Shown piece by piece: positions 3,937 to 63,655 of a DNA stretch of 64,000 nucleotides (the stretch's first letter is position 1; each line of letters begins with the position of its first letter). Made by a program: the position numbers and the translations under genes. Origin of the DNA: Humibacillus xanthopallidus (GTDB lineage Bacteria; Actinomycetota; Actinomycetes; Actinomycetales; Dermatophilaceae); the NCBI RefSeq assembly GCF_006717145.1, contig NZ_VFQF01000002.1, positions 372,001-436,000 on the forward strand, read 5' to 3'. The notes under the pieces are model-generated. The model was not told the DNA's origin, ran no database searches, and saw nothing but the letters and a program-made list of their open reading frames with translations.

Positions 3937-3996
3937 CCCGGCCGGACGGCATACGGCAGCGGGCGTGCTCGCCGGCCGGTGTGGCCACCCGACCGC

Positions 3997-5470: not shown

Positions 5471-5516
5471 TGACGGAGCCCGCCCCACGGCATACCGCTG
5501 GGGGCGGGCTCCGTCA
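5471..5516. terminator. 16-bp stem terminator with CGGCATAC in its loop
   Basis: Positions 5471-5486 and 5501-5516 are perfect reverse complements (16 bp, very GC-rich), separated by a 14-nt loop that contains CGGCATAC, the dispersed 8-mer of this window. It lies between the convergent PfpI and flavin oxidoreductase genes and probably terminates both. No T tract is present. Confidence 0.85.
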
Positions 5517-28777: not shown

Positions 28778-28890
28778 CACGTGAGTATGCCGTCCGGGCG
28801 CCACCCGCTCCCAATGCAGCAGTCGGGCGCGGGGTATCAACCTCGTCCAACGGCTCTCTGCCCCGTAGGGAGCGAGGGGAGGGGGTGGCG

Positions 28891-29538: not shown

Positions 29539-29775
29539 AGGGCGGGCCCAGGCCGCGCTGCGCGTCGAGGACTGAGCCCCACGGCATACGCCGGCGGTCA
29601 CTCGGTCGTCCACTCGGCTCCACCCGGGGGCGCCCGGGGGGACCCACCGGAAACGCTCAGCAACCGACCAGCAAGCCCCCACCGGAGGCCCAGCAAGCGT
29701 GCTTACCGTCGAGCTGCCGGAGAGACCGACACCAGCACGGAGCTGAGTACACGGCAGGCACCCTGAGGAGGGGCA
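29539..29775. other. intergenic gap without a gene
   Basis: About 237 bp between the LysE-type gene and the membrane esterase. It holds one CGGCATAC copy (29582-29589), a CCCGGGGGCGCCCGGGGG-type inverted stretch near 29620-29640 and a GAGGAGGGG ribosome site at its right edge. I see no RNA gene or riboswitch. Confidence 0.5.
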
Positions 29776-32295: not shown

Positions 32296-32338
32296 ACCAA
32301 GGCGACGTCCCCGTATGCCGTCCGGCCGGGTTCGCGCG

Positions 32339-35797: not shown

Positions 35798-38700
35798 GTG
35801 GATCCGAAGAAGACGCTCCTGTCGTGGCCCGTCGTCCGGCAGCTCCGCTCCGGTGACTTCCTCGGTCGCGGGCCCTCGGTGACGTCGGCCCGCACGCGTG
35901 GCCTCGAGCCGCGCACGTCGACCGCCGACAAGGTCGTCCAGAGCGTCTGCCCCTACTGCGCCGTCGGTTGTGGGCAGCGTGTCTTCGTCAAGGACGGGCG
36001 CGTCGTCCAGATCGAGGGTGACCCGGACTCGCCGGTCTCGCGAGGGCGCCTGTGCCCCAAGGGATCTGCGAGCGAGCAGCTCGTCAACAACCCCGGCCGC
36101 CAGCGCAAGGCGCTCTACCGCCGTCCCGGCGGCGCCGACTGGGAGCCGATCGAGCTGTCCACCGCCGTCGAGATGATCGCGCAGCGCTTCGTCGAGTCGC
36201 GTCGGCGCACGTGGCAGGACCACGACGAGCACGGGCGTCCGCTGCGCCGCACGATGGGCATCGCGTCCCTCGGCGGGGCGACGCTCGACAATGAGGAGAA
36301 CTACCTCATCAAGAAGCTCTTCACCGCAGCAGGCGCCATCCAGATCGAGAACCAAGCACGTATTTGACACTCCTCCACGGTCCCCAGTCTGGGGTCCTCG
36401 TTCGGGCGCGGCGGCGCCACGCAGTACGTGCAGGACCTGTCCAACGCCGACTGCATCGTCATCCAGGGATCGAACATGGCCGAGTGTCATCCGGTCGCCT
36501 ACCAGTGGGTGACGGAGGCACGTCTCAAGGGCGCCAAGGTCATCCACATCGACCCGCGCTTCACGCGGACGTCGGCGACCGCCGACAAGCACATCCCGAT
36601 CCGCGCCGGCAGCGACGTCGTGCTGCTCGGCGCCCTCATCAAGTTCATTCTCGACAACGAGCTGTACTTCAAGGAGTACGTCGTCGCGTACACGAACGCC
36701 GCGACCCTGGTGAACGAGGACTTCCAGGACACCGAGGACCTCGACGGGCTCTTCTCCGGCTACGACGACGAGTTGGGCAGCTACGCGCCCGACACCTGGG
36801 CCTACGCGAGCAGCGACGGCGAGGGCGACGAGTCGCCCGGCACCATCGGTGGGCCCGCGGCCGGGCACGAGCACGGCCAGAGCCAGTCGGAGCGGTCAGC
36901 CGGTGACCAGCACGGCTCCGGCGGCCCGGCGCTCGAGCATGCCCGCGTCCTGCGCGACGAGACGCTGCAGGACCCCAACACCGTCTTCCAGATCCTCAAG
37001 CGGCACTACGCCCGCTACACGCCCGAGATGGTGGCCGACACGTGCGGCATCAACGTCGACGACTTCAACTACCTCGCCAAGGCGGTCACGGAGAACAGCG
37101 GCCGCGAGCGCACGACGGCCTTCGTCTACGCGGTGGGCTGGACCCAGCACACCCTCGGTGCGCAGTTCATCCGCACGGCCGCGATCGTGCAGCTGCTCCT
37201 CGGCAACATGGGGCGCCCGGGCGGCGGCATCATGGCGCTGCGCGGGCACGCGAGCATCCAGGGCTCGACCGACATCCCCACGCTCTACAACATCCTCCCG
37301 GGCTACCTCGCGATGCCCGTGGCCGGCCTCCACGACACGTGGGAGGACTACGTCGGCGCGATCGGCAACAAGGAGCAGAAGGGCTTCTGGGCCAACGCCG
37401 ACACGTATGCCGTCAGCCTCCTCAAGGCGTGGTGGGGCAAGGCCGCGACGGCTGAGAACGACTGGCGCTTCGACTACCTCCCGCGTCTCTCCGGGGCCCA
37501 CGGCACCTACCAGACGACGATGGCGATGCTCGACGGCGAGGTCGAGGGCTACTTCCTCCTCGGACAGAACCCTGCCGTCGGGTCGGCCCACGGCCGCATG
37601 CAGCGTCAGGCCATGGCGAAGCTCAAGTGGCTCGTCGTGCGTGACTTCAACATGATCGAGTCGGCCACCTTCTGGAAGGACGGCCCCGAGATCGCCTCGG
37701 GCGAGCTCACGACCGAGGGCATCGAGACCGAGGTCTTCTTCCTGCCCGCCGCAGCGCACACGGAGAAGAGCGGGTCGTTCACCCAGACCCAGCGGATGCT
37801 CCAGTGGCACCACCAGGCGGTGCAGCCACCCGGTGACTGCCAGAGCGAGCTGCAGTTCTTCTTCGAGCTGGGCCGCCGGGTGCGCGAGCTGCTCGCCGAC
37901 TCGACCGACGAGCGCGACCGTCCCCTGCTCGACCTCACGTGGGACTACCCCGCCGACGAGAACGGCGACCCCGACGCCGAGGCGGTGCTCGCCGAGATCA
38001 ACGGCCGTCACCTGACGGGCGACAAGGCGGGACAGCCTCTTTCGGCCTACACGGAGATGAAGGCCGACGGCTCCACCGACGGCGGCTGCTGGATCTACAC
38101 CGGCGTCTACGCCGACGGCGTCAACCACGCCGCCGACCGCAAGCCCGGCCAGGAGCAGGACCTCACGGCGCTCGAGTGGGGCTGGGCGTGGCCGGCCAAC
38201 CGTCGCATCCTCTACAACCGCGCCTCGGCCGACCCCGAGGGCAAGCCGTGGAGCGAGCGCAAGAAGTACATCTGGTGGGACGAGGAGCAGGGCAGGTGGA
38301 CGGGGCACGACGTGCCCGACTTCGTGCCCGACAAGGCGCCGAGCTACCGTCCGGAGCCCGGCACGGGCGGCGCTGCGGGGCTCGCGGGCGATGACCCCTT
38401 CGTCATGCAGGCCGACGGCAAGGGCTGGCTCTTCGCGCCCAAGGGCATGCTCGACGGGCCGCTCCCGACGCACTACGAGCCGCAGGAGTCACCCGTCCGC
38501 AACCCGCTCTATGCCCAGCAGTCGAACCCGGCCCGCAAGGTCTTCCCCCGCAAGGACAACCTGTGGAGCCCGTCCGGTGACGAGCCGGGCGCCGACGTCT
38601 ACCCGTTCGTCTTCACGACCTACCGCCTCACCGAGCACCACACGGCCGGCGGCATGAGCCGCTGGCTGCCCTACCTGTCGGAGCTGCAGCCGGAGTTCTT

Positions 38701-39127: not shown

Positions 39128-40207
39128 ATGGGCTTCTGGCGCAACCAGCTCTCAGGGCCGACCGATCCCGCGGCCGATGCCGCGTGGGACCGGCGCGAGC
39201 CGCGCAAGGGCTTCTTCACCGACACCTCCATCTGCATCGGCTGCAAGGCCTGCGAGGTGGCGTGCAAGGAGTGGAACCACGTGCCCGAGGACGGGCTCGA
39301 CCTGCTCAACCAGTCCTACGACAACACCGGTGCGCTCGGGGCGAGCACGTGGCGCCACGTGGCCTTCGTCGAGCAGTCGAGCGAGCGCATCGAGCAGGCC
39401 CGCGAGTCGGGTCGCCGGCTCGTCCAGCTCGGTATGCCGTCCGTGCGCACTGCGCCCGAGCCCCCTCTCATGGGTGGTGGCGTCACGACCACCGACCCGG
39501 CGGTGCCCGACCTGCGCTGGCTCATGGCATCCGACGTGTGCAAGCACTGCACGCACGCGGCCTGTCTCGACGTGTGCCCGACCGGGTCGCTCTTCCGCAC
39601 CGAGTTCGGCACCGTCGTCGTGCAGGACGACGTCTGCAACGGCTGCGGCTACTGCGTCGCGGCCTGCCCGTTCGGCGTCATCGAGCGCCGGAGCGGTCAC
39701 GAGGGTCACGAGAAGGGCGCCCGGTCGCACGGCATCAGCATCAAGGGGTCCGGGGGGTCGGGCGACACGAGCAGGGGTTCGCACCAGAACCCCCCGTCCC
39801 ACGCCGAGACCAACGGCGAGGTGAAGAACGTCGGCATCGCCCAGAAGTGCACGCTCTGCTACGACCGGCTCGGAGCCGGCCAGACTCCCGCCTGTGCGCA
39901 GGCCTGTCCGACGACCTCGATCAAGTTCGGCGACCTCGACGAGATGCGCGCCACGGCCCGCGCCCGGGTCGCCGAGCTGCACGAGCTCGGCTACCCCGAG
40001 GCTCGGCTCTACGGCGTCGACGAGCACGACGGTGTCGGCGGCACCGGCTCCACGTTCCTGCTGCTCGACGAGCCCGAGGTCTACGGGCTGCCGCCGGACC
40101 CGCGGGTCACGACCGCCGACCTGCCCGACATGTTCCGCAAGGCCGGCTACGCGGGGCTGACGATGCTCGGTCTGGCCGCGGCAGCGTTCGTCGGGAGGCG
40201 TCGATGA
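39128..40207 (+). CDS. fdhB: formate dehydrogenase iron-sulfur subunit
   Basis: Predicted 359-residue electron-transfer subunit with four [4Fe-4S] clusters. The cysteine groups are visible as ICIGCKACEVACKEW (Cys36, 39, 42, 46), CKHCTHAACLDVCP, CNGCGYCVAACPF and CTLCYDRLGAGQTPACAQAC. A hydrophilic Gly/Ser/His-rich insert of about 45 residues separates the third and fourth groups, longer than usual. The C-terminus ends in a short hydrophobic helix (GLTMLGLAAAAFVG) that could contact the membrane subunit. It starts 3 bp after fdhA, behind AGAGGAGG, and overlaps the next gene. Confidence 0.93.
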   Translation: MGFWRNQLSGPTDPAADAAWDRREPRKGFFTDTSICIGCKACEVACKEWNHVPEDGLDLLNQSYDNTGALGASTWRHVAFVEQSSERIEQARESGRRLVQLGMPSVRTAPEPPLMGGGVTTTDPAVPDLRWLMASDVCKHCTHAACLDVCPTGSLFRTEFGTVVVQDDVCNGCGYCVAACPFGVIERRSGHEGHEKGARSHGISIKGSGGSGDTSRGSHQNPPSHAETNGEVKNVGIAQKCTLCYDRLGAGQTPACAQACPTTSIKFGDLDEMRATARARVAELHELGYPEARLYGVDEHDGVGGTGSTFLLLDEPEVYGLPPDPRVTTADLPDMFRKAGYAGLTMLGLAAAAFVGRRR

Positions 40208-41310
40208 CGGTCAACCCCTTCGACGCAGACCGCCCCCCGGAGCGCGCGCGCCGCGGCAACGGCGAGCGAAAGCGCAACGGCCAGAACGGCGCCCGCCGCC
40301 GCGACGAGTCGCTCATGGTGCCCGATGTGTCGTTCGACAGCTACTACGGCCGCCACATCGTCAAGCCCGCGCCGTGGGAGAAGGAGATCGCGGCATACCT
40401 CTTCCTCGGCGGTGTGGCCGGCGGGTCGGCACTGCTCGCGGCAGGGGGTCGCGCCCTCGGCTACCCGGCGCTGCAGCGCGTCGGGCGAGTGGGGGCCATG
40501 GGGGCTGCGGCGCTCGGTGGTGCCGCGCTCGCCAAGGACCTCGGCAAGCCGAGCCGGGCCCTCAACATGATGCGCACCGTCAAGCTCACCTCGCCGATGT
40601 CGGTCGGCTCGTGGATCCTCACTGCCTTCAGCGGGTTCTCGGGCCTGGCCCTCGCCTCCGAGGTGACGCAGGCCATCGCCGCCCGGAGCCAGGGTGGGGT
40701 CGGGGGTGGCTCCGCCGTCGCTCGCGTGGCCCGTGTGCTCGAGCTCGTGGACGGGCCCGCGACGGTGGGTTCGGCACTCTTCGCACCGCCCCTCGCGGCA
40801 TACACCGCAGTGCTGCTCGCCGACACGGCCACCCCGACCTGGCACGAGTCCTACCGTGAGCTGCCCTTCGTCTTCGTCAGCTCCGCCAACCTCGCGGCCG
40901 CCGGGCTCGCTCTGGTCGCGGTGCCGACGGCGCAGAACGGGCCGGCGCGGCGGCTCGCCGCCGTCAGTGCGGTGGCCGAGACCCTCGCGTTCGAGCGGAT
41001 GCAGGACAAGCTCGGCCCGACGCTGTCGGAGCCGCTGCGCACGGGCAAGGCCGGGCGGCTGGTTCGGGCGAGCAAGGCCCTGACGATCGCGGGCGCCGTC
41101 GGCTCCGTCGCGCTGGGGCGCAGTCGGGTGGCGGCCGCGGTGAGCGGCCTTGCCCTCATGGCAGGTTCGGCCTGTCTGCGATTCGGCGTCTTCGAAGCGG
41201 GCCTGGCATCGGCGATCGACCCGAAGTACACCGTCGAACCCCAGCGGGAGCGGCTGGAACGCCGCCGCGCCGCGGGTGTCGTCGACGACTCCATCACGAC
41301 GGCGCGATAG
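40204..41310 (+). CDS. NrfD-type membrane subunit of formate dehydrogenase
   Basis: Predicted 368-residue integral membrane protein of the NrfD/PsrC family with about eight helices. KPAPWEKEIAAYLFLGGVAG is the family's N-terminal signature, and MSVGSWILTAFSGFSGLAL follows. It would pass electrons from FdhB to menaquinone. The first 40 residues are an Arg/Asn-rich cytoplasmic extension. The ATG overlaps the fdhB stop (ATGA), so translation is coupled. The stop codon lies within the loop of a hairpin shared with convergent selD. Confidence 0.9.
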   Translation: MTVNPFDADRPPERARRGNGERKRNGQNGARRRDESLMVPDVSFDSYYGRHIVKPAPWEKEIAAYLFLGGVAGGSALLAAGGRALGYPALQRVGRVGAMGAAALGGAALAKDLGKPSRALNMMRTVKLTSPMSVGSWILTAFSGFSGLALASEVTQAIAARSQGGVGGGSAVARVARVLELVDGPATVGSALFAPPLAAYTAVLLADTATPTWHESYRELPFVFVSSANLAAAGLALVAVPTAQNGPARRLAAVSAVAETLAFERMQDKLGPTLSEPLRTGKAGRLVRASKALTIAGAVGSVALGRSRVAAAVSGLALMAGSACLRFGVFEAGLASAIDPKYTVEPQRERLERRRAAGVVDDSITTAR

Positions 41311-42589: not shown

Positions 42590-43915
42590 GTGTCGCAGGC
42601 GGATCCACGGCGCAGCGTCCCGCGCACCGACGTGCTGCTGGCCCACCCCGCCCTCGTGGCCGCGGCAGATCGACACGGCGCGGGAGCGGTCAGGTCCGCG
42701 GTGCGGTCGGCCCAGGCGAGAGTTCGCGCCGGCGAGATCGCGCCCGGCGAGGTCGTCGCGGCAGCTCAGGCGGCACTGCCGGCACGCAGCACGACCCTGC
42801 GTCCGCTCCTCAACGCCACGGGCGTCGTCGTGCACACGAACATCGGCCGGGCCCCCCTCTCCGACGCCGCGATCGAGGCCATCGGGGCGGCGGCGGGCTA
42901 CGTCGACGTCGAGTTCGACACCGCGACCGGAGCGCGCGCCCGACGCGGGCGCGGCACCCTCGACGCGCTGCGCGCCGCCGTCCCCGGCGCCGGTGACGCC
43001 CTCGTGGTCAACAACGGAGCGGCCGCGCTCGTCCTCGCGACGACGGCCCTGGCCGCCGGCCGCGAGGTCGTCGTCAGCCGCGGCGAGATGGTCGAGATCG
43101 GCGATGGATTCCGGCTGCCCGACCTCATCGCCTCGACGGGCGCCCGGCTGCGCGAGGTCGGCACGACGAACCGGACCCGCCTCGCCGACTACGCCGCCGT
43201 CGTCGGCCCGGACACCGGCTGCGTCCTCAAGGTCCACCCGAGCAACTTCCGCGTCGAGGGCTTCACGAGCGCGGCCTCCGTGCAGGAGCTCGCGACGCTC
43301 GGGGTGCCGCTCGTCGTCGACATCGGCAGCGGGCTGCTGGGCCCGGACCCGCTGATCCCCGACGAGCCGGATGCCACGACGGTGCTCCACGACGGCGCGA
43401 CCGTGGTGACGGCGAGCGGTGACAAGCTGCTCGGCGGCCCCCAGGCCGGCCTCGTCCTCGGTGAGGCCGCCACGGTCGAGCGGCTGCGCCGGCACCCCCT
43501 CGCCCGGGCGCTGCGCGTCGACAAGCTGACGCTCGCCGCCCTCGAGGCGACGTTGCGTGGCCCCGTGAGCCCGGTGACGGCATACCTCCACGCCGACGGC
43601 GAGGGCCTGCGGGCGCGCACCGAGCGACTCGCGGCGGTGGCGTCAGGAGACGTCGTGGCCGTCGAGGGGCGCGTCGGTGGGGGCGGAGCGCCGGGGGTGC
43701 CGTTGCCCGGCTGGGCCGTGGCGCTGCCCGAGGCGTGCGCCGAGCGGCTGCGGCGCGGCGAGCCCGGCGTCGTGGCGCGGGTGGAGCGTGGCCGGTGCCT
43801 CGTCGACCTCCGCTGCGTGCCGCCTGACCGCGACGGCGACGTCGAGGCGGCCGTGCTCTCAGCGCTCGACGAGCTCGACGAGCTCGCTCGCGGCAAGTCC
43901 ACCCGCGAGGGCTGA
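42590..43915 (+). CDS. selA: L-seryl-tRNA(Sec) selenium transferase
   Basis: Predicted 441-residue PLP enzyme that converts seryl-tRNA(Sec) to selenocysteyl-tRNA(Sec) with selenophosphate. The pyridoxal lysine is Lys279 in TASGDKLLGGPQAG. LLNATGVVVHTNIGRAPLS, VVNNGAAALVLA, LREVGTTNRTRLADY and VHPSNFRVEGFT are family signatures. The start chosen is the GTG at 42590, nine bases after GGAGAGG; a GTG at 42572 would overlap that site. The gene follows tRNA-Sec and ends 3 bp before selB. Confidence 0.95.
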   Translation: MSQADPRRSVPRTDVLLAHPALVAAADRHGAGAVRSAVRSAQARVRAGEIAPGEVVAAAQAALPARSTTLRPLLNATGVVVHTNIGRAPLSDAAIEAIGAAAGYVDVEFDTATGARARRGRGTLDALRAAVPGAGDALVVNNGAAALVLATTALAAGREVVVSRGEMVEIGDGFRLPDLIASTGARLREVGTTNRTRLADYAAVVGPDTGCVLKVHPSNFRVEGFTSAASVQELATLGVPLVVDIGSGLLGPDPLIPDEPDATTVLHDGATVVTASGDKLLGGPQAGLVLGEAATVERLRRHPLARALRVDKLTLAALEATLRGPVSPVTAYLHADGEGLRARTERLAAVASGDVVAVEGRVGGGGAPGVPLPGWAVALPEACAERLRRGEPGVVARVERGRCLVDLRCVPPDRDGDVEAAVLSALDELDELARGKSTREG

Positions 43916-45818: not shown

Positions 45819-45853
45819 GCCGGACGGCATACGCCCGCGGTATGCCGTCCGGC
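45819..45853. terminator. terminator built from two inverted CGGCATAC motifs
   Basis: GCCGGACGGCATAC (45819-45832) and its exact reverse complement (45840-45853) flank a 7-nt loop, 35 bp after the selB stop. Each arm contains the dispersed 8-mer, so this is an inverted motif pair acting as a probable selB terminator upstream of lhr. Confidence 0.85.
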
Positions 45854-45935
45854 GCGGTGCCGATCGACCCGCGCGGCGCCCGCCGGGCGACGGCGCCCCC
45901 AGCGGGTGTCGGTGGGGGATGGCAGGCTGACCTCG

Positions 45936-48900
45936 ATGGCGAAGGACAAGCGGGCCGACGTGCTCGACCGATTCTCCCCGGCGACGGCCGCGTGGTTCCG
46001 GGGCAGCTTCAGCGCGCCCACCGCGGCGCAGGCGGGTGCATGGGACGCGATCAGCTCGGGCCACCACTGCGTCGTCGTCGCGCCGACCGGGTCGGGCAAG
46101 ACGCTGTCGGCCTTCCTCTGGGCCATCGACCGTATGGCGAGCGAGCCGGTGCCCGACGAGAAGCTCGCGCGCTGCCGGGTGCTCTACGTCTCGCCGATGA
46201 AGGCGCTCGCCGTCGACGTCGAGCGCAACCTGCGCGCACCGCTCGTCGGCATCGGTCACGCCGCGACGCGGCTCGAGCTCCCGCAGCCCGACATCGGGGT
46301 GAGCGTGAGGTCGGGCGACACCCCCGCGGGCGAGCGCCGCGCCTTCGCCCGCACGCCGACCGACATCCTCATCACGACCCCCGAGTCGCTCTTCCTCATG
46401 CTCACCTCATCGGTTCGCGAGGCGCTCAAGGGGGTCGAGACGGTCATCATCGACGAGGTCCACGCCGTCGCGGGCACCAAGCGTGGGGCTCACCTCGCGC
46501 TGACCCTCGAGCGGCTCGACGCCATCCTGCCGAAGCCTGCCCAGCGCGTCGGCCTGTCGGCGACGGTGCGTCCGGTCGAGGAGGTCGCCCGCTACCTCGC
46601 CGGCGGCCGGCCGGTCGAGATCGTCCAGCCGGTGTCGACCAAGGAGTGGCAGCTCGAGGTCGTCGTGCCGGTGCCCGACATGGGCGAGCTGTCGGGGGCT
46701 GCCGCCGAGATCTCGCCGGGGGTCCCCGACCTCTCGGGGCCGGCGGCGGGCAACGCCCCGCAGGCGAGCATCTGGCCGCACGTCGAGGAGCGCATCGTCG
46801 ACCTCATCGCCGACCACCGCTCGACCCTCGTCTTCGCCAACTCGAGGCGCCTCGCCGAGCGTCTGACGTCTAGGCTCAACGAGATCTGGGAGGAGCGGCT
46901 GGCCGAGGACGAAGGGCTGCCGCTGGCCAGCGTCGGCGCCACCCGGGCCCCGGCTCAGGTCATGGCCCAGGCGGGCACGAGCCGCGGCGCCCCGCCGATC
47001 CTCGCCCGGGCCCACCACGGGTCGGTGAGCAAGGAGCACCGCGCCGCCATCGAGGAGGACCTCAAGGCCGGGCGCCTGCCCGCGGTCGTCGCGACGAGCA
47101 GCCTCGAGCTCGGCATCGACATGGGGGCCGTCGACCTCGTCATCCAGGTCGAGAGCCCGCCGAGCGTCGCGAGCGGCCTGCAGCGGGTGGGTCGCGCGGG
47201 GCACCAGGTGGGCGCGGTCAGCGAGGGCGTGCTCTTCCCGAAGTTCCGCGGCGACCTCGTCCAGACCGCCGTCGTCGTCGAGCGCATGCGGGCCGGGGCG
47301 ATCGAGTCGCTGCGCATCCCGGCCAACCCCGTCGACGTGCTCGCCCAGCACGTCGTCGCGATGTGCGCGATGGACGAGTGGAGCGTCGCCGACGTCGAGT
47401 CCCTCGTGCACCGCACCGCGAGCTTCGCCTCGCTCCCGCGCTCGGTGCTCGAGGCGACCCTCGACATGCTCGCCGGGCGCTACCCCTCCGACGAGTTCGC
47501 CGAGCTGCGCCCCCGCATCGTCTGGGACCGCGTCACCGACACGCTCACCGGCCGCCGCGGAGCCCAGCGCCTCGCTGTCACGAGCGGCGGCACGATCCCC
47601 GACCGCGGGCTGTATGCCGTCTTCCTCGCCTCCGGTGAGGGGCCCGGTCGCCGGGTCGGCGAGCTCGACGAGGAGATGGTCTACGAGTCGCGCGTCGGTG
47701 ACGTCTTCACCCTCGGCACGTCGACGTGGCGCATCGAGGACATCACCCACGACCGCGTCCTCGTCACACCCGCGCCCGGCCAGGCCGGCAAGCTGCCGTT
47801 CTGGAAGGGCGACCAGCAGGGCCGGCCTGCCGAGCTCGGCCGCGCGCTCGGTGCCTTCGTCCGCGAGATCGTCGGGCTGACGCCGGAGCGGGCCCGCGCG
47901 CGGGTCACCGCTGCCGGCCTCGACGAGTGGGCGGCCGACAACCTCATCGCCTACCTCACCGAGCAGAAGGAGGCGACGCGCCACGTCCCCGACGACCGCA
48001 CGATCGTCGTCGAGCGCTTCCGCGACGAGATCGGCGACTGGCGGGTCGCGGTGCTCTCGCCCTTCGGTGGGCAGGTCCACGCGCCGTGGGCGCTGTGCGT
48101 CGCGGCGCGCATGCGCGAGCGCTTCGGGGTCGACGTGCAGGCGATGCACGGCGACGACGGCATCGTCTTCCGCCTGCCCGACCTCGAGTTCGACGACCCG
48201 GCGGGCGGGGGTCAGATCGGCCAGCAGCTCATCGAGCTCGTGACCCTCGAGCCCGAGGAGGTCAGCGAGCTCGTCACGCAGGAGATCGGCGGATCCGCCC
48301 TGTTCGCAGCGCGATTCCGCGAGTGCGCCGCGCGTGCCCTGCTGCTGCCGCGGCGCCGCCCCGACCGCCGCCAGCCGTTGTGGCAGCAGCGGCAGCGGGC
48401 GGCGCAGCTGCTCGAGGTGGCGAGCCAGTACCCCACCTTCCCCATCGTCCTCGAGGCCGTGCGCGAGTGCGTCCAGGACGTCTTCGACGTGCCGGGTCTC
48501 GTTGACCTGATGACCGACATCCGCTCGCGTGGCGTCAAGGTCGTCGACGTCGAGTCGAGCCAACCGAGCCCCTTCGCGAAGTCGCTCGTCTTCGGCTACG
48601 TCGCCCAGTACCTCTACGAGGGCGACTCGCCGCTCGCCGAGCGGCGGGCGGCCGCGCTCGCCCTCGACCCGTCGCTGCTGTCCGAGCTGCTCGGTCAGGG
48701 TGAGGCGCTCGCGCTGCGCGACCTGCTCGACCCCGAGGCGGTGGCCCGCACCGAGGCGGAGCTCCAGCGGCTGACGCCCGAGCGTGGTGCCCGCGACGGC
48801 GAGGACGTCGCCGACCTGCTCCGCGTGCTCGGGCCGCTCTCGATGGGCGACATCGTCGCCCGCGCTGCCGAGGGCTTCGACCCGGCTGCGATCCAGGCGG

Positions 48901-50930
48901 CCGTCTCCGAGCTCGAGCAGGCCCGCCGCGTCATCGCGGTCCGCGTCGCCGGTGACGACCGCTGGGCCGCCATCGAGGACGCCGCACGACTGCGCGACGC
49001 GCTCGGCACCTCCCTGCCCGTCGGCGTGCCGCAGGCGTTCCTCGAGCCGGTGCCCGACCCGCTCGCCGACCTCGTCGCCCGGTTCGCCCGCACCCACGGG
49101 CCCTTCGCTGTGCAGACCGTCGCGGTCTGGTGGGGCCTCGGTCCGGCGGTGGTCCACGACGCGCTGCGCCGGCTCGTCGGCTCGGGCCGCGTCGTCGAGG
49201 GCGAGCTGCTGCCGACCGAGAACGGCGGCGGTCATGGCCCGGAGTTCTGCGACGCCGAGGTGCTGCGGCTGCTGCGCCGACGGTCGCTCGCCGCCCTGCG
49301 CCACGAGGTCGAGCCCGTCGGCCAGCTCGACCTCGCCCGCTTCCTGCCGCAGTGGCAGGGAGTCGGCGGTGGCCTGCGCGGGCGCGAGGGGCTGCTGCGA
49401 GCCGTCGAGCAGCTCACCGGGGCGGTCGTGCCGGCCAGCGCGCTCGAGACGCTCGTCCTCCCGGCCCGGGTCGCCGACTACCGCCCTGCTCTGCTCGACG
49501 AGGTGATGAGTGCCGGTGAGGTCGTCTGGCGAGGCCACGGCTCCCTGCCGGGCGACGACGGCTGGGTCAGCCTGCACCTCGCCGACGCCGCCCATCTCAC
49601 GCTGACACCACCCGACGACACCGAGCTCACCGATGCCGAGCGGGCCGTCCTCGACGCTCTCGAGGGTGGCGGCGCCTACTTCTTCCGCGCGCTCGCCAGC
49701 CGTGTCGGCCTCGGTGACACGGAGACCAACGACGCGCTGTGGTCGCTGCTGTGGTCCGGCCGCGTCACCAACGACACAGTCGCCCCCCTTCGCGCGCTGC
49801 TCGCCGGCGGGCGCACGGCCCACAAGCGCGCCCCCTCGGGCCCCCGGTCGACGCGGTATGCCGGCCGGCGCGGCTCGCTCGGCCGCTTCGGCTCCCTGCG
49901 CGGTGCCGTCGCAGGCGCGAGCCCGGCGCAGGTCGAGGCTGCCGAGGACGCCGCGACGACCAAGGCTCTCGCGGTGGGTCGGGCAGCCGGGTCGGGGCCG
50001 TCCACCGGGGTCGGCCGCTGGACCGCGCTGCCTCCCGCCGAGTCCGACCCGACGGTGCGCGCGGTCACCAACGCCGAGCTGCTCCTCGACCGCTACGGGG
50101 TGCTGACCCGTGGCTCGGTCGTCACCGAGGATGTCCCCGGAGGCTTCGCGGCGGTCTACCGCGTGCTCGCCGCGGCAGAGGAGGCCGGAAAGGTGCGCCG
50201 CGGCTACTTCGTCGAGGGCCTCGGTGCGTCGCAGTTCGCCTCGACGGGTGCCGTCGACCGGCTGCGGTCGATGTCACGGCTGCCCGGCGCGACCGCGTCC
50301 CAGCAGTCCGAGCAGTCCGGCGGCAGGGTCGACCCGAGCCTGGGCGACGACTGGGCGACGCCGGCACCCGGCCAGCGCGGCGGCATACCAGCTCGGCACG
50401 GCAGGAGCGCCGACGCGCGGCGGGAGCGCACCGGGCCGCCGGCCCTCGTGCTCGCCGCGAGCGACCCGGCCAACCCCTACGGCGCGAGCATCTCCTGGCC
50501 CGAGCGCGGGCTCACCGAGCCCGGAGAGAGCACCGACGAACGCAGCGACGCGCCCGGCGCGGAGGCCGGTGGCCGGCGCGCGACGGCCGAGCGCGGTCCG
50601 GGCGGCACGGCGGGTGAGGGCGGTCGCCCCCGCCGCAAGGGCCACCAGCCGAGCCGCAAGGCTGGGGCGCTCGTCGTGCTCGTCGACGGCGACCTCGTGC
50701 TCTACGTCGAGCGTGGCGGCAAGACGATGCTCTGCTGGTCCGACGACACGGAGCGGCTGCAGGCGGCAGCCGACGCACTGGCGCTCGCCGTCCGTGAGGG
50801 CGCACTCGGCCGCCTCACGGTCGAGAAGGCCGACGGCGCCTCCGTGCTGGGCTCCGGTCACCCGCTCGTCGAGGCGCTCTCCCACGCGGGCTTCCACATG
50901 ACACCGCGTGGGCTGCGGCTCCGTCGCTGA
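45936..50930 (+). CDS. lhr: large superfamily 2 helicase Lhr
   Basis: Predicted 1664-residue 3'-5' DNA/RNA-DNA helicase implicated in DNA repair in actinobacteria. The Lhr core shows Walker A APTGSGKT at about residues 49-56, Walker B IIDEVHAV, SATVRPVEEVA, then a second RecA domain with ARAHHGSVSKEHR, ATSSLELGIDMG and QRVGRAGHQ. Winged-helix and Lhr-specific domains follow. The C-terminal 700 residues match the Lhr extension, interrupted by low-complexity stretches around 1445-1570. The ATG at 45936 begins MAKDKRADVLDRFSP. The usual partner nei is not adjacent. The protein is somewhat longer than typical (about 1500). Confidence 0.93.
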   Translation: MAKDKRADVLDRFSPATAAWFRGSFSAPTAAQAGAWDAISSGHHCVVVAPTGSGKTLSAFLWAIDRMASEPVPDEKLARCRVLYVSPMKALAVDVERNLRAPLVGIGHAATRLELPQPDIGVSVRSGDTPAGERRAFARTPTDILITTPESLFLMLTSSVREALKGVETVIIDEVHAVAGTKRGAHLALTLERLDAILPKPAQRVGLSATVRPVEEVARYLAGGRPVEIVQPVSTKEWQLEVVVPVPDMGELSGAAAEISPGVPDLSGPAAGNAPQASIWPHVEERIVDLIADHRSTLVFANSRRLAERLTSRLNEIWEERLAEDEGLPLASVGATRAPAQVMAQAGTSRGAPPILARAHHGSVSKEHRAAIEEDLKAGRLPAVVATSSLELGIDMGAVDLVIQVESPPSVASGLQRVGRAGHQVGAVSEGVLFPKFRGDLVQTAVVVERMRAGAIESLRIPANPVDVLAQHVVAMCAMDEWSVADVESLVHRTASFASLPRSVLEATLDMLAGRYPSDEFAELRPRIVWDRVTDTLTGRRGAQRLAVTSGGTIPDRGLYAVFLASGEGPGRRVGELDEEMVYESRVGDVFTLGTSTWRIEDITHDRVLVTPAPGQAGKLPFWKGDQQGRPAELGRALGAFVREIVGLTPERARARVTAAGLDEWAADNLIAYLTEQKEATRHVPDDRTIVVERFRDEIGDWRVAVLSPFGGQVHAPWALCVAARMRERFGVDVQAMHGDDGIVFRLPDLEFDDPAGGGQIGQQLIELVTLEPEEVSELVTQEIGGSALFAARFRECAARALLLPRRRPDRRQPLWQQRQRAAQLLEVASQYPTFPIVLEAVRECVQDVFDVPGLVDLMTDIRSRGVKVVDVESSQPSPFAKSLVFGYVAQYLYEGDSPLAERRAAALALDPSLLSELLGQGEALALRDLLDPEAVARTEAELQRLTPERGARDGEDVADLLRVLGPLSMGDIVARAAEGFDPAAIQAAVSELEQARRVIAVRVAGDDRWAAIEDAARLRDALGTSLPVGVPQAFLEPVPDPLADLVARFARTHGPFAVQTVAVWWGLGPAVVHDALRRLVGSGRVVEGELLPTENGGGHGPEFCDAEVLRLLRRRSLAALRHEVEPVGQLDLARFLPQWQGVGGGLRGREGLLRAVEQLTGAVVPASALETLVLPARVADYRPALLDEVMSAGEVVWRGHGSLPGDDGWVSLHLADAAHLTLTPPDDTELTDAERAVLDALEGGGAYFFRALASRVGLGDTETNDALWSLLWSGRVTNDTVAPLRALLAGGRTAHKRAPSGPRSTRYAGRRGSLGRFGSLRGAVAGASPAQVEAAEDAATTKALAVGRAAGSGPSTGVGRWTALPPAESDPTVRAVTNAELLLDRYGVLTRGSVVTEDVPGGFAAVYRVLAAAEEAGKVRRGYFVEGLGASQFASTGAVDRLRSMSRLPGATASQQSEQSGGRVDPSLGDDWATPAPGQRGGIPARHGRSADARRERTGPPALVLAASDPANPYGASISWPERGLTEPGESTDERSDAPGAEAGGRRATAERGPGGTAGEGGRPRRKGHQPSRKAGALVVLVDGDLVLYVERGGKTMLCWSDDTERLQAAADALALAVREGALGRLTVEKADGASVLGSGHPLVEALSHAGFHMTPRGLRLRR

Positions 50931-54236: not shown

Positions 54237-54932
54237 CTACCGCTGGAGCGCCTTGAGCGTCATCGGCCGGCCGCCGCTCAGGCGGTCGACCTGGACGAGG
54301 TAGAGCTCGGCGCAGGCGAGCGCGTCGGTGAGGGCCTCGTGGGCGGCATACCGGGGGAGGCCCAGGTTGGCGCGCGCCGTGCCCAGGCGCAGCGCACCGG
54401 GCGGGAGGTCCTCGCCCGCGTGGCTGCGCAGGACGCGGCTCTGCAGCTCCATCGTGTCGACGGCGGTGATCGGCAGCGGCACCCCGAGCTCGCGCTCGCA
54501 CGCCGCCGAGAGGAAGCCGGTCTCGATCACGGCGTGGTGCGCGAGCAGCACCCGGCCGGTGAGGGCCGCGGCCACACGTTCGAGGAGGTCGCGCAGGGCG
54601 ATGCCGCCCGCGAGCGCGTCGTCGGTGATCCCGTGGATCGTCGCGCTCTGCCCGACCTCGACGTCGGCGCGGCAGATCAGCTGCTCGGCGCCCGCGAGGT
54701 TGATCTGAAGCCCGTCGACCGGAACGAAGCCCACCGACAGGATGTGGTCGGCGCGCGGGTCGAGGCCGGTGGTCTCGAGGTCGAGCGCGAGCAGCGGTAG
54801 GTCGGAGACGTCAGTGCGCGGGCCGGGCGGGGCGCTCGCGAGGTAGTCGCGCACCGGTCCCGGGGGCGCCTGCTCGGCCCACCGCGCTTGCCGTGCCCGC
54901 CGCCGGTCGACCCTGAACCGCGAGAGGATCAC
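54237..54932 (-). CDS. DnaQ-like 3'-5' exonuclease
   Basis: Predicted 231-residue DEDDh exonuclease. Motif ExoI is LALDLETTGLDPRADHI, ExoII lies in VLLAHHAVIETGFL and ExoIII in AAHEALTDALACAEL. It resembles DNA polymerase III epsilon-type proteins but has no polymerase partner here. It overlaps the DUF294 gene by 4 bp (ATGA-type), a pairing also found in other bacteria, where the two are thought to act in nucleotide or signal turnover. The substrate is not known. Confidence 0.9.
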   Translation of the reverse strand: MILSRFRVDRRRARQARWAEQAPPGPVRDYLASAPPGPRTDVSDLPLLALDLETTGLDPRADHILSVGFVPVDGLQINLAGAEQLICRADVEVGQSATIHGITDDALAGGIALRDLLERVAAALTGRVLLAHHAVIETGFLSAACERELGVPLPITAVDTMELQSRVLRSHAGEDLPPGALRLGTARANLGLPRYAAHEALTDALACAELYLVQVDRLSGGRPMTLKALQR

Positions 54933-56800
54933 GTCACGTGCCCGAGCGGATGGCTGTGCAGGAGCGTCTGCTGAGCCGACCGCACGACGTGGAAAGCGTC
55001 ACGCAGGTGCCGCTTCTCGAAGCTGCTCAGCTCGCTCGGGGCGACGAAGTTGTCCGGCGGCATAGCAGCGCGAATCTGCTTGGCCTGATGGAGAAGTCGC
55101 ACGTAGCGGATGAACTCGAAGGCATCGTGCAGATCCGCCGCTGTCTCCTCCGAGAGCCCACCCGCGCCCACGGCGGCCGCCATGCGCGAGGAGGTGCTCA
55201 CCTGCGGAAGCCCCCGTGACAGTGCGTGCACCCGGGCCACCTCGACGACGGCGTGGAAGCCGCCGCGCTTGAGGTCGAGGGTGTCCTTGTGCGCGCCCTC
55301 GCGCTCGAGGACGAAGCCGCGGAAGAAGCCGAGCGGGGGCTCGTTGGCTGCGGCGTTTCTCGCCAGGTGCGCGAGGAAGCGGGTGCCGGTGGGTGCGGAC
55401 CGGCGGATCTGCGCCTGCAGCTCCTCGACGAGACCCTCGTCGCCGTGCACGGCGCGCAGGTCGAAGAAGATCGCCGACCGCAGGATCGCGTCGGGCACCG
55501 GCTCGTCGATCCACTGCGCGAAGGTGCGCTTCCACTCCCGCAGCGGCCGGCGCCACTGTGGGTTGGTCGCCATGACGTCGCCGGGGCACCGCGGGTAGCC
55601 GCAGGCGACGAGCCCGTCGACGACGAAGCGGGCGAGCGCCTCGAACCACGGCGCGTCTGCGGGGGTCGCGTCATCGCTGATGACGAGCGCGTTGTCCTGG
55701 TCGCTGCCCGGCCCCTGCTCGAGGCGGGCCTGCGACCCGAGCACCACCCAGGCGTATGCCGTCGGGCTCGGCCCCAGCTCACGCTCGGCGAGGTGGATGA
55801 GACGTTGCTCGACGGCGTCGCCGACGGCGGTGACGATGCGGCCGATGCCGTCGGCGGTCGCGTCCTCGTGGACGAGCTGGTCGATGATGCGGGGGAGTCG
55901 CTGGCTGAGCGCGACGAGGGCCTCGAGGTCGTCGGCCTTCGCGATGTCGCCGACGAGGTGGATCGGGTTCGCCCGCTCGAGCCGCATGAGGTCGGTGCTC
56001 GTCAGCATGCCGAGGGGAGCGTGCCCTCCGGCACCGCCGACGACGGGCATGTGGTGGATGTTGCGCGAGGTCATCTCGAGGATGAGCTCCATCGCGATGT
56101 CGTCGGGCCCGGCAGTGACCGGGTCGGCGGTCATCATCGCGCTGACCGGGGTGGAGGAGTCGAGGCCCGCCGCGAGCACGCGGGTGCGCAGGTCGCGGTC
56201 GGTGACGATGCCGGTGAGGCGGTCGCCGTCCACGACGAGCAGCGACGACACCTGCTCGCGGGCCATCAGCTGCGCCGCCTCGCGGACCGTCGCGTCACCG
56301 GTCGTCGTGATCGGCTCGCGCCGCACCAGGTCGCGCAGCCGGGTCTGCAGCACGGCGGTGCGGCGCTGGGCGTGCGGCATGGACTGCAGCGCGTGGCGCA
56401 GCCGGGTGGCCCGCTGCTGCGAGAAGAAGTCGCCCACGACGGGGTGCGCCGCCGCCAGCTCGTGGAAGGCGGCCGAGGGCAGCACGAGCAGGAGGGTGTC
56501 CTCGATGGCCTCGACCTCGAAGCGGGACGGTTGGCCGCCCAGCGCCGTCGTGCCGAAGGCGGTGCCCTCCCCTCCGCGGTCGACGAGCGTGCCGCTGTCG
56601 TCGGTGATCTGCACCGCGCCGCTGCGCACGACGAAGACCTCGTCGTTGCCGCGCCCCACCGACATGAGAAGGGTGCCGCGACGGGCGTAGCGGACGGTCA
56701 TTCGGCGCGCGAGCCGCTCGAGGTCGCTGCGCGGCACGGCGGCGAAGGGCGCCTGCTCGGCGAGGAAGTCCGTGACTTCGGGGATCTCGGCGTCGGCCAC
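54929..56800 (-). CDS. DUF294 signalling protein (cNMP-binding, CBS, nucleotidyltransferase-like)
   Basis: Predicted 623-residue multidomain protein. A cyclic-nucleotide-binding domain occupies about residues 10-130 (VRSGAVQITDDSG; GEGTAFGTTALGG). A CBS pair follows at about 155-275 (QVSSLLVVDGDRLTGIVTDR). A DUF294 nucleotidyltransferase-like domain spans about 290-430 (WVVLGSQARLEQGPGSDQDN), and its partner C-terminal domain runs to the end. The GS...SDQDN pattern keeps the metal-binding residues of the fold, so activity is possible. It probably senses an adenine nucleotide. Translation is coupled to the downstream exonuclease. Confidence 0.9.
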   Translation of the reverse strand: MADAEIPEVTDFLAEQAPFAAVPRSDLERLARRMTVRYARRGTLLMSVGRGNDEVFVVRSGAVQITDDSGTLVDRGGEGTAFGTTALGGQPSRFEVEAIEDTLLLVLPSAAFHELAAAHPVVGDFFSQQRATRLRHALQSMPHAQRRTAVLQTRLRDLVRREPITTTGDATVREAAQLMAREQVSSLLVVDGDRLTGIVTDRDLRTRVLAAGLDSSTPVSAMMTADPVTAGPDDIAMELILEMTSRNIHHMPVVGGAGGHAPLGMLTSTDLMRLERANPIHLVGDIAKADDLEALVALSQRLPRIIDQLVHEDATADGIGRIVTAVGDAVEQRLIHLAERELGPSPTAYAWVVLGSQARLEQGPGSDQDNALVISDDATPADAPWFEALARFVVDGLVACGYPRCPGDVMATNPQWRRPLREWKRTFAQWIDEPVPDAILRSAIFFDLRAVHGDEGLVEELQAQIRRSAPTGTRFLAHLARNAAANEPPLGFFRGFVLEREGAHKDTLDLKRGGFHAVVEVARVHALSRGLPQVSTSSRMAAAVGAGGLSEETAADLHDAFEFIRYVRLLHQAKQIRAAMPPDNFVAPSELSSFEKRHLRDAFHVVRSAQQTLLHSHPLGHVT

Positions 56801-56854: not shown

Positions 56855-58147
56855 CTAGAGACGCTCGACACCCGGCGCCGGTGTCGCCGCACCCCGGGTG
56901 TCGAGGAAGCGGCGCGAGATGCGGGCGAGGCCGTCGACGTCGTAGCCGCGGTGGTGCTGGAGCAGGATCGTGAGGTCGGCGTGCTCCACGGCGGCGTCGA
57001 GGTCGGCGACGCTGCGCGCCGGCAGGCCCAGCGCGTCCCACTTCTCGATGAGCGGGTCGTGGAACTCGACGAGGGCTCCGAGGTCGATGAGGCGCCGGCC
57101 CACGTGCACCGCCGGAGACTCGCGCTGGTCGGCGATGTCGGGCTTGTAGGTGACGCCGAGCAGCAGCACCCGTGCACCACGCAGGGCCTTGCCGTCCTCG
57201 TTGAGGGCGTCCTGCGCCCGCCTCACGACGTAGGCGGGCATCGACGCGTTGATCTCCTGCGCGAGCTCGACGAAGCGGAACGGGTAGCCGAGGCGGGTGC
57301 GCACGTTGTGCGAGAGGTAGTTCGGGTCGATCGGGATGCAGTGCCCGCCGACGCCGGGGCCGGGATAGAAGGCTTGGAAGCCAAAGGGTTTCGTGCGTGC
57401 GGCGGCGATGGCGTCCCAGAGGTCGATGCCGAGCTCGTGGCAGAAGCGGGCCATCTCGTTGACGAGGGCGATGTTGATGTGGCGGTAGGTGTTCTCCAGC
57501 AGCTTGGCCGTCTCCGCCTCGCGGGTGCCCTTCGTCGGCACGACGGTATCGACGAAGCGGGCGTAGAAGTCGCAGGCGGCCTGCGTGCACGCCGGCGTGA
57601 GCCCGCCGACGACCTTCGGGGTGTTGCCGATGCCGTATGCCGCGTTGCCGGGGTCCACGCGCTCCGGCGAGAAGGCGAGGTGGAAGTCGGTGCCGGCGAC
57701 GAGGCCGCTCGCCTCGAGCAGGGGCCGGACGATCTCGTCGGTCGTGCCGGGGTAGGTCGTCGACTCGAGGACGACGAGCGAGCCGGGGCGCAGGTGCCGT
57801 GCGATCGTCGATGCCGCCGACCGGACTGCGGTGAGGTCTGGCCCACCCTCGTCGCCGAGCGGGGTGGGCACGCAGATGACGGTGACGGCGGCCTCAGCGA
57901 GGGCCGCGGGATCGGTCGTCGGCACGAAGCCGGCGGCCAGCATCGTGGCGACGTCCTCGTCTGAAAGGTCGTCGACGTGCGAGCGGCCGGCCGTCAACGA
58001 CGCGACGACCGAGGCGTTCGCATCGAGGCCCACCACCGCCAAGCCGGCGTTGACCGCGGCCTGCGCGAGCGGCATACCGACGTAGCCCAGACCGATGACC
58101 GCAAGGTCGTGTCGATGTCGGACCACGCGCGCGCCCGGTCCGCTCAC
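56855..58147 (-). CDS. UDP-sugar 6-dehydrogenase
   Basis: Predicted 430-residue nucleotide sugar dehydrogenase that oxidises a UDP-hexose to a UDP-uronate with NAD. The Rossmann motif is VIGLGYVGMPLAQ, the catalytic Cys lies in GPGVGGHCIPIDPNYL, and the C-terminal UDP-binding half carries VLLLGVTYKPDIADQRESPA. It is more like WbpA/UDP-GlcNAc dehydrogenases than the wecC copy 1.2 kb away, so the operon makes two different uronic sugars or one copy is specialised. Its GTG start overlaps the wecB stop (GTGA). It is the last gene of the operon before DUF294. Confidence 0.9.
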   Translation of the reverse strand: MSGPGARVVRHRHDLAVIGLGYVGMPLAQAAVNAGLAVVGLDANASVVASLTAGRSHVDDLSDEDVATMLAAGFVPTTDPAALAEAAVTVICVPTPLGDEGGPDLTAVRSAASTIARHLRPGSLVVLESTTYPGTTDEIVRPLLEASGLVAGTDFHLAFSPERVDPGNAAYGIGNTPKVVGGLTPACTQAACDFYARFVDTVVPTKGTREAETAKLLENTYRHINIALVNEMARFCHELGIDLWDAIAAARTKPFGFQAFYPGPGVGGHCIPIDPNYLSHNVRTRLGYPFRFVELAQEINASMPAYVVRRAQDALNEDGKALRGARVLLLGVTYKPDIADQRESPAVHVGRRLIDLGALVEFHDPLIEKWDALGLPARSVADLDAAVEHADLTILLQHHRGYDVDGLARISRRFLDTRGAATPAPGVERL

Positions 58148-60665: not shown

Positions 60666-61897
60666 GGTGCTTCTCCCGTGGTTGGTCGTGGGCCCTCCGG
60701 GCCGGAGGGCGGGTGGTGTGCATCGGAGCTCGCGCTCGGCCCCGGCAGCGCAGGCTCGCCCTCAGCGGGTCGGCCCCGCCGGGCGAGGGCGCGGACGTGC
60801 GTCACGAACTCGTGGCCGACGGCGTTCCAGTCGTGGTGCTCGCGGGCGTAGCGGTGCCCGGCACGGCCGAGGGCGGCTCTCCGCTCGGGGTCGGCCGCGA
60901 GCTCGATGAGCGCTGCCGCCGTCGCGGCGGCGTCGCCGAAGGGCACGACGATGCCGCATCCGGCCCGCGTCACGATGTCGCGCGCCAGGGGCAGCGGGGT
61001 CGTGATGACCGGGATGCCGTGGGCCATGTACTCGATGACCTTCGTCGGCATCGAGTGCCGGTAGTTGGGGCGGTCCTCGAGGAGCGAGAGCCCGGCGAGG
61101 GCCCCGTCGAGCATCGGCAGTGCGATGTCGCTCGGCACGAAGCCGTGGTGGCGCAGGTGGCCGCTCTTCACGGCCCACGCCAGGGCCTCTGCCGTGCGGG
61201 TGTCGCGGGCCGGCCCGATGACCTCGACCGTGATCCGGCCCTTGCGCTCGACCGTGAGCCGCCGGCCGGTCTGCACGAGGGTCGCAGCGCCGCGGGGCAT
61301 CGTCACCGAGCCGAGGTAGACCGCGCGGTGGCAACCCGGCCGGGCCACCGTCTCTGGCACGCGCACGGTGTTGGGCACGACGAGGTGCTCACCGGCGAAG
61401 CGTTCGGCATAGGCGTGCTCGGCGAGGATGAGCTCGTGGTGGCGCTCCGCGTGGCGCTCGAGGGCGCGGGCTGCGGCCATCATCGGCCGGCGTGCGCGCG
61501 CCGGCACCCAGTCCTTGGTCTCGATCGAGGCGACGGTGTCCTCGTGGACGTCCCACAGTAGGTTGCGCAGCCCCAGGCCGAGCGCCGCGACGAGCAGCTC
61601 GGGGTCGTGGACGATGACGACGTCGTGGTCCACCCCTCGGGTGCGCAGGAGTGCTCGCGCCGCCTGCATCGCCTCCTTTCGGGTGCGCCCGCTCGCGTGC
61701 GGCAGGTCGACGGGCCGGAGACCGGCGACGTCTGGGAGGGGGAGATCGTGCGCGCCGAAGGGGGCGGCATACGTCACCTCGAAGCCGGCCTCGAGGAGCG
61801 AGCCGATCTCGCGGTGCCGGATGCGGGCGTCCTCGGGGTGGTGGACGACCGTCATGACGAGCGCCCGGTCGGGCTGGCCTCCGGGGCGCGCGCTCAT
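60599..61897 (-). CDS. glycosyltransferase family 4
   Basis: Predicted 432-residue GT-B glycosyltransferase. The N-terminal acceptor domain starts ALVMTVVHHPEDARIRHREI, and the C-terminal donor domain has KVIEYMAHGIPVITTPLPLA (the nucleotide-sugar-binding region) and later AREHHDWNAVGHEFV. The last 60 residues are a Pro/Ser-rich tail that overlaps wecC by 67 bases in another frame, which is unusual. The ATG at 61897 overlaps the ABC ATPase stop. It probably extends the polymer exported by the neighbouring ABC system. Confidence 0.88.
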   Translation of the reverse strand: MSARPGGQPDRALVMTVVHHPEDARIRHREIGSLLEAGFEVTYAAPFGAHDLPLPDVAGLRPVDLPHASGRTRKEAMQAARALLRTRGVDHDVVIVHDPELLVAALGLGLRNLLWDVHEDTVASIETKDWVPARARRPMMAAARALERHAERHHELILAEHAYAERFAGEHLVVPNTVRVPETVARPGCHRAVYLGSVTMPRGAATLVQTGRRLTVERKGRITVEVIGPARDTRTAEALAWAVKSGHLRHHGFVPSDIALPMLDGALAGLSLLEDRPNYRHSMPTKVIEYMAHGIPVITTPLPLARDIVTRAGCGIVVPFGDAAATAAALIELAADPERRAALGRAGHRYAREHHDWNAVGHEFVTHVRALARRGRPAEGEPALPGPSASSDAHHPPSGPEGPRPTTGEAPCSTTESPSSVSVTSAYRPAPR

Positions 61898-62718: not shown

Positions 62719-63655
62719 AGCGACCCTCCCCACGCCAGAAGAAGACGAGGCCCCCGGCCCCGAGCACGACCGCCCAGATGCCGGCGGCCGCCCAGCTCGA
62801 CCACGTGAGCGGGTACTGGTCCATGAGGGCCTCGCGGCCGATCGTCATCGTCACCGCGAGCGGCTGGTAGAGCAGCAGCATGCTGACGATCCCGTGGCCG
62901 GCGTAGTGGGTGATGCTGAAGAAGACGCCCGAGACGTAGCGGGCGAGCCGGATGACGACAGGCACGAGGTTGGCCGTGTCACGCGCGGCGTTGACGATGC
63001 GGGCGAGGAAGAACGCGATGCCGAGGTTGATCGCGGTCTGGAGCACGAGGGCGGGCCCGAAGAGCAGCCAGTGCCACGAGAACGGCTCTCCCGTCAGGGG
63101 GATCATGACGAGCAGCACTCCGAAGGCCGGCAGGGTGACGAGGAGCTGGGTGAGGGTCACCGACATCGGCAGGATCGCCCGGGGGAAGCGCAGCGCGCGG
63201 ACGAGGCCGATGTTGGCGGTCACGGCGCGGGCCCCGGCGATGATCGCCGAGGCGGAGTAGCCGAAGACGAAGATGCCGACGGTGAGGAAGGCGATGTAGT
63301 TCTCGGTGCCGCCGCGGGTCTTGAGGAGCACGCCGAAGATGAGGTAGTAGGAGCCGACGAGCAGCAACGGGTTGATGACCGCCCACAGCTGCCCGAGGTG
63401 GTTGTTCTGGTTCGTCGCGTAGGCCTGGGCCGACGACAGGTGCCACACGAGGTGCCGGAATTCCCAGATCTCGCGCAGGTAGTGCCGTCGGTGGGGGCGC
63501 ACACCCAGCTCGGAGAGGCCCGCGGACCGCGCCAACTCGGCGCACTCCTCGGGTGAGAGCGGGCTGGGGGTATGCCGTCCGGTGGCCGCGTCGCTCGCGG
63601 GCGCGCCTGCGGGTGGCTCCGTCAGCGACAGGGTCTCGGTCGACGGGCTGCTCAT
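62705..63655 (-). CDS. ABC-2 polysaccharide exporter permease (Wzm/TagG-like)
   Basis: Predicted 316-residue membrane permease with about six helices. NNHLGQLWAVINPLLLVGSY is the conserved ABC-2 polymer-export motif, followed by TRGGTENYIAFLTVGIFVFG. The first 70 residues are a Pro/Ser/Thr-rich cytoplasmic tail. It pairs with the ATPase to flip or export a complete glycan chain across the membrane. The ATG at 63655 overlaps the stop of the upstream glycosyltransferase. Confidence 0.91.
   Translation of the reverse strand: MSSPSTETLSLTEPPAGAPASDAATGRHTPSPLSPEECAELARSAGLSELGVRPHRRHYLREIWEFRHLVWHLSSAQAYATNQNNHLGQLWAVINPLLLVGSYYLIFGVLLKTRGGTENYIAFLTVGIFVFGYSASAIIAGARAVTANIGLVRALRFPRAILPMSVTLTQLLVTLPAFGVLLVMIPLTGEPFSWHWLLFGPALVLQTAINLGIAFFLARIVNAARDTANLVPVVIRLARYVSGVFFSITHYAGHGIVSMLLLYQPLAVTMTIGREALMDQYPLTWSSWAAAGIWAVVLGAGGLVFFWRGEGRYGSD

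Follow-up and report, generated by a model that had tools for sequence, protein, structure and literature searches.

A DNA-level process maintains the eight-letter word CGGCATAC in and between genes of this actinobacterial genome, and which process does so cannot be read from the sequence. We interpret it as a genome-wide self-recognition word whose role probably resembles that of a DNA-uptake sequence, an inference made without uptake data for these species. Whatever its reader may be, a family-specific word that occupies 44% of the coding sites allowed to it and resists change letter by letter represents a strong, unexplained constraint on the whole genome.

The window, i.e. the whole 64-kb stretch of DNA analysed here, contains 36 copies of CGGCATAC compared to 0.81 expected from dinucleotide-preserving shuffles. 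Across the entire 5.39-Mb genome (Humibacillus/Terrabacter-type, G000), 3,225 copies (0.60 per kb) were counted, and relatives have densities as high as 1.1 per kb. The reversed word, serving as a control, occurs 439 times, a number that its flanks suggest is partly produced by CGGCATAC itself where GGC comes next; CATACGGC is a scrambled form of the word. A contiguous 456 kb (G000 contig 2) harbours 296 copies, preceded by A or G in 88%, at a density 2.2 times higher between genes (1.22 per kb) than within them (0.55 per kb). Intergenic copies display a loose 5' flank (C at -9, G at -6, C at -5 and -4) and C or G at +8, and the fuller form of the word is RCGGCATACS, preceded by a GC-rich 5' flank that is only loosely defined. 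CGGCATAC is asymmetric and not palindromic (it differs from its own complement), but strand-neutral, as both orientations are about equally frequent in each of eight 57-kb blocks, independently of GC skew and gene direction. Neighbouring copies less than 60 bp apart were inverted in 12 of 12 pairs, about half of them intergenic, and close direct pairs did not occur at this distance (0 of 12).

Where the preliminary description of this DNA has 29 coding copies, our recount gives 27 coding and nine noncoding ones, the difference lying in edge cases of gene calling. The reported dominance of Ala-Tyr and Tyr-Ala stands, now with 21 of 27 copies (11 Tyr-Ala, ten Ala-Tyr) in place of 22 of 29. Met-Pro copies number three and not four, while the two His-Thr copies and a single Ile-Pro copy (Gly-Ile-Pro) were found again. 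Outside lhr, Tyr-Ala is encoded at 350-357 (+; TAT GCC), 16826-16833 (-), 18153-18160 (-), 21687-21694 (-), 23622-23629 (+), 28135-28142 (+), 34072-34079 (+), 37405-37412 (-) and 54344-54351 (+), the last two being intact at the aligned H. xanthopallidus locus (L009). Ala-Tyr is found at 6048-6055 (-; GCA TAC), 10057-10064 (+), 16888-16895 (+), 23269-23276 (-), 25220-25227 (+), 40391-40398 (+; intact in L009 and L042), 40796-40803 (+), 43578-43585 (+) and 55754-55761 (-), these three intact in L009, and at 57635-57642 (-; intact in L009, L012, L042 and L063). Met-Pro copies lie at 1194-1201 (-), 9748-9755 (-) and 39432-39439 (-; CGGCATCC in L009, intact in L042), and His-Thr copies at 12161-12168 (+) and 63570-63577 (-). 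Noncoding copies are located at 3947-3954 (+), 5488-5495 (+), 28785-28792 (-), 29582-29589 (+) and 32313-32320 (-), and two more are noncoding by these calls, one at a gene edge (58070-58077, +; intact in L009) and one at 61765-61772 (+).

The remaining copies lie upstream of or within lhr (45906-50930, +), which encodes a large helicase-related protein with the Pfam domains DEAD, DEAD_assoc, WH_Lhr and WH2-4_Lhr. An intergenic inverted pair is situated upstream of the gene (left half 45825-45832, +; right half 45840-45847, -), and three copies are hosted within it. Those at 47612-47619 (-; CTG TAT GCC GTC) and 49856-49863 (-; CGG TAT GCC GGC) are intact in H. xanthopallidus (L009) and in all six aligned Terrabacter/Terracoccus relatives, and altered in the word-poor Humibacillus DSM 29435. 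The third, at 50381-50388 (+), reads GGC GGC ATA CCA (Gly-Gly-Ile-Pro) as had been described, in a gene whose identity as lhr is confirmed by Pfam; it encodes part of the Lhr tail past the WH4 domain, and the aligned site is intact in L009 and L014. Judged from the lhr loci, from which alone species names were taken, the nearest named relative is H. xanthopallidus, followed by Terrabacter and Intrasporangium.

Codon choice and conservation between species

Codon statistics cover 456 kb, in which 352 genes were called with a simple codon-model script and not with a standard annotator, and orthologue statistics cover 195 kb; neither extends to the whole genome. When synonymous codons were resampled according to the genome's own usage with amino acids fixed, nine coding copies of CGGCATAC were expected, while 219 were observed (24-fold). 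Of 497 coding positions at which the protein sequence is compatible with the word, these occupy 44%, and all six coding frames are used. The preference for particular codons depends on whether the neighbouring letters complete the word: Tyr-Ala flanked by G at either end is written as TAT-GCC in 105 of 118 cases but in only 36 of 254 elsewhere, Ala-Tyr as GCA-TAC in 67 of 108 cases after CG vs 10 of 244, and Ile as ATA in 23 of 93 cases after Gly in a C..C context vs 2 of 440. Equal frequencies of GCA-TAC and TAT-GCC outside an RCGG context would have refuted the preliminary description, and these counts are clearly at odds with such an outcome. Large shares of two rare codons reside inside the word, i.e. 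105 of 282 TAT codons (37%) and 22 of 39 ATA codons (56%). One-mismatch variants were not enriched in genes over the 456 kb except for CGGCATAG (18 vs 4.6 expected, about 3.6-fold), which is perhaps a weakly accepted variant, and CGGCGTAC was depleted 4-fold.

Alignment with a comparison genome of H. xanthopallidus (G001; 194.6 kb aligned, 91% identity) revealed 111 of 121 aligned copies to be intact (92%), whereas the corresponding share is 52% for 8-mers in general and 59% for same-letter permuted words (p about 1e-15). Among intergenic copies, 20 of 22 were kept (vs 45%). Mismatches amount to 0-4% across the eight core positions and are higher immediately beyond, which gives the word sharp edges in coding and intergenic DNA alike. 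Unusual conservation of synonymous sites among orthologues had been proposed as a check of codon override, and it is evident for each codon concerned: GCA was kept in 33 of 34 cases (97%) inside the word and in 119 of 399 (30%) outside, TAT in 39 of 39 vs 36 of 72, and ATA in 11 of 11 vs 2 of 5. No divergence gradient surrounds the word, four-fold-site divergence being about 0.24 at every distance (G000 vs G001), and this flat profile leaves no trace of word-focused recombination between the two species compared.

If the word merely followed from preferred codons or dipeptides, or from constraint on the proteins, this would explain why most coding copies read Ala-Tyr or Tyr-Ala, but we hold such an origin to be hardly credible: the null model that keeps amino acids and codon usage gives nine copies and not 219, the word is denser between genes, the dipeptides themselves are hardly enriched, and exact codons are retained across species inside the word only. 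Codon or dipeptide bias was thus rejected on the basis of synonymous resampling, intergenic density and dipeptide counts. A single mutational bias was rejected as well because several substitution types yield the word (GCC to GCA, TAC to TAT, ATC to ATA). The earlier proposal that selection acts on DNA and not on protein therefore finds support in the six frames, the 24-fold excess, the intergenic density and the letter-exact conservation limited to eight bases, although the supposed selection could equally be a drive, i.e. biased uptake and recombination, that restores the word.

Distribution, dialects and losses among relatives

Among 188 genomes of the family, 109 were enriched for CGGCATAC (at least 390 copies) and 66 had fewer than 150. 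At the level of genera (53), 27 were enriched, 19 at background, three mixed and four intermediate, and one genus comprises opposite states with 19 copies in one genome (G121) and 3,681 in another (G122). Outside the family, none of the 362 genomes examined, which represent 19 families of the same order, was enriched. In a single-gene tree of lhr built with a quick method, word-poor members (Phycicoccus sensu stricto, Humibacillus DSM 29435 and one Pedococcus) are scattered inside word-rich clades, which is best read as an early presence of the word in the family followed by repeated losses.

Dialects of the word share a constant CATAC, with CGNCATAC in Dermacoccaceae relatives and CASCGCATAC in Nostocoides-type genomes. 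The latter reaches 238-780 copies in four of four genomes of genus g21 compared to 5-16 for the control. Six genomes of genus g71 (G137, G145, G151, G152, G155 and G162) contain CGGCATAC together with above-background CASCGCATAC, and the counts of the two words are inversely related, as though one dialect were being exchanged for the other. In word-rich genomes, CATAC is almost always part of the word, and in word-poor relatives (e.g. Phycicoccus loci L037, L038, L039, L055, L061 and L070) it is about ten times rarer in any context than base composition predicts (7 vs 78 expected). A limited search of 20-80 kb samples did not reveal a replacement word in word-poor genomes.

Possible readers and rival explanations

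Uptake words on a genome scale are well documented in Neisseriaceae and Pasteurellaceae, both of them Gram-negative families. Typically, they are hyper-abundant, asymmetric, strand-neutral, denser between genes, arranged in inverted pairs, divided into dialects that keep a fixed core, and lacking in acquired DNA. They are the best match for CGGCATAC among known kinds of word, and its density lies within their range. We propose an uptake-like role because the features of CGGCATAC fit this profile and the genome possesses a com/tad set of the Micrococcus luteus type, namely two Tad loci encoding Flp- and TadE-type pilins together with a ComEA (SLBB and HHH domains) and a ComEC (Competence and Lactamase_B domains). 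In M. luteus, another actinobacterium, transformation requires ComEA, ComEC and two tad loci (PMC4322843), and the likeness extends to the Flp and TadE/F-type pilins of this Tad/Flp-dependent system. The two differ in that CGGCATAC is at background in 19 other sampled families of the order, and the M. luteus study makes no mention of an uptake sequence (PMC4322843). By the proposed mechanism, a part of the competence machinery at the surface or membrane would prefer DNA bearing the word; this part would most likely belong to the Tad/Flp pilus and work with ComEA/ComEC as in M. luteus, and homologous recombination of the imported DNA would restore and spread the word wherever coding permits. 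The reader is thereby inferred to be an uptake receptor, uptake to be biased, and drive rather than site-by-site selection to keep the word. Several points speak against this reading: the known com/tad machinery does not track CGGCATAC, recombination focused on the word left no trace between the two species compared, and one-mismatch words are not enriched in genes although mutation should supply such a pool.

ComEC was found in 54 of 58 genomes and the Flp pilin (DUF4244) in 174 of 188 family genomes, word-poor relatives included in both cases, and TadE and TadF of tad-1 were present in each of the eight genomes, word-poor or intermediate, that were inspected at that locus. ComEC, the Flp pilin and the tad-1 minor pilins were therefore rejected as discriminating genes. 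None of the tested genes tracks the word, and no reader protein was found. Competence without an uptake word is common in other bacteria. In one genome with the CASCGCATAC dialect (G021, L187:3187-6600), tad-1 stops after TadC beside a transposase that contains an integrase core; no homologues of TadE, TadF or TadG were found at this locus, and these minor pilins may have been lost or moved. The PilM family is missing from G000 and from nearly every other genome of its family, so a type IVa pilus was rejected as the reader.

Much of what characterizes the word is shared with the DNA-uptake sequence (DUS) of Neisseriaceae, which is read by the minor pilin ComP: both are short, asymmetric and present in thousands of copies in hosts with competence genes. 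The DUS has clade dialects around a constant CTG core and some relatives are without any abundant word (PMC3630211), and likewise CGGCATAC has clade dialects, a constant core (CATAC) and relatives lacking it. However, its sequence is unrelated, its host is a GC-rich monoderm and uptake bias has not been shown. As this host lacks a type IVa pilus by the PilM test, and hence a ComP-type system, and as data on the defining uptake bias are missing, the word cannot be filed under the Neisserial DUS/ComP system. The Pasteurellaceae uptake signal sequence (USS) occurs in inverted pairs between genes, in terminators (PMC5217627); CGGCATAC resembles it in a spacing of about one copy per 1-2 kb, in inverted intergenic pairs (without terminator data here) and in a core of 8-9 bases with looser flanks, but differs in sequence and host. 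The USS reader, too, is only predicted, with ComN as the candidate (PMC12616744).

Whether CGGCATAC constitutes a third uptake-sequence system that evolved independently in a monoderm host, with a Tad/Flp-type instead of a type IVa pilus reader and with dialects and repeated losses within one actinobacterial family, appears to us evenly balanced. No report of such a word in actinobacteria was found in the open-access literature, which is weak evidence of novelty given that most subscription papers lie outside it, and searches with the letters of the word returned mostly primer and adapter sequences. If true, an actinobacterial uptake word with dialects and word-losing close relatives would offer an independent origin for comparison, would serve as a sequence marker of natural transformation among soil bacteria in which this ability is not known, and would provide an engineering rule, i.e. 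to add CGGCATAC to DNA. The existence of word-free relatives makes the reader gene findable via comparative genomics.

The main rival to an uptake role is a cytoplasmic reader combined with direct selection at each site, where an unknown sequence-specific DNA-binding protein uses about 3,000 weakly selected copies for intracellular architecture, repair or recombination. The letter-exact purifying pattern at single sites with unaffected divergence around them would suit such a site, as would the failure of the word to track any competence gene tested. We nevertheless regard this as possible but unlikely, considering that strands are equal in all blocks, unlike in polar chromosome words, that selection would have to act on thousands of sites even though entire genera do without the word, and that a shift of dialect would call for thousands of sites to change in concert, something more readily accounted for by uptake drive. 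Another rival is a polar signal for a recombination nuclease or a chromosome translocase, as with Chi and KOPS, for which a short, asymmetric and over-represented word would be typical, but Chi and KOPS are polar with replication, whereas no 57-kb block has a strand bias, regardless of GC skew or gene direction. Moreover, G000 and G001 lack RecC, which is patchy in word-rich and word-poor genomes alike (AdnAB-type enzymes were outside the test). A polar KOPS/Chi word, for which we see very little room, was rejected for lack of strand bias and because RecC does not track CGGCATAC.

A solitary methyltransferase with methylation-directed repair might also create and keep the word, in the manner of cyanobacterial HIP1 (GCGATCGC), which is comparably hyper-abundant in and outside genes and has patchy losses. 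HIP1 is palindromic and linked to orphan methyltransferases (PMC4390886), while CGGCATAC is asymmetric, and the N6/N4 methyltransferase family PF01555, the only class searched, is absent from the word-rich genomes G000, G001, G005, G008, G022, G023 and G033 and was accordingly rejected as maker of the word. In addition, unrelated substitutions feed CGGCATAC (GCC to GCA, TAC to TAT, ATC to ATA), for which one biased repair reaction is insufficient. Thus, a methylation word seems quite improbable, if slightly less so than a polar signal.

Acquired DNA and other word-free stretches

A 27.8-kb region on G000 contig 3 (880001-907800; L135 and L136:1-7800) has no copy of CGGCATAC where about 17 would be expected. 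It has a GC content of 65-66%, carries integrases of phage type along with a third Flp/Tad cluster (T2SSE, T2SSF, RcpC), and looks like a recently acquired island with its own pilus genes. Four small blocks without a counterpart in G001 contain three copies in about 12 kb, and Tetrasphaera phage TJE1, the sole phage checked, has two copies in 49 kb. The longest word-free stretch within the 456 kb spans 11.9 kb and includes an intein-bearing dnaB and an IS110-family transposase. The intein, which contains a LAGLIDADG domain, splits this dnaB (L091:1798-4257; G000 contig 2, 41798-44257) in frame.
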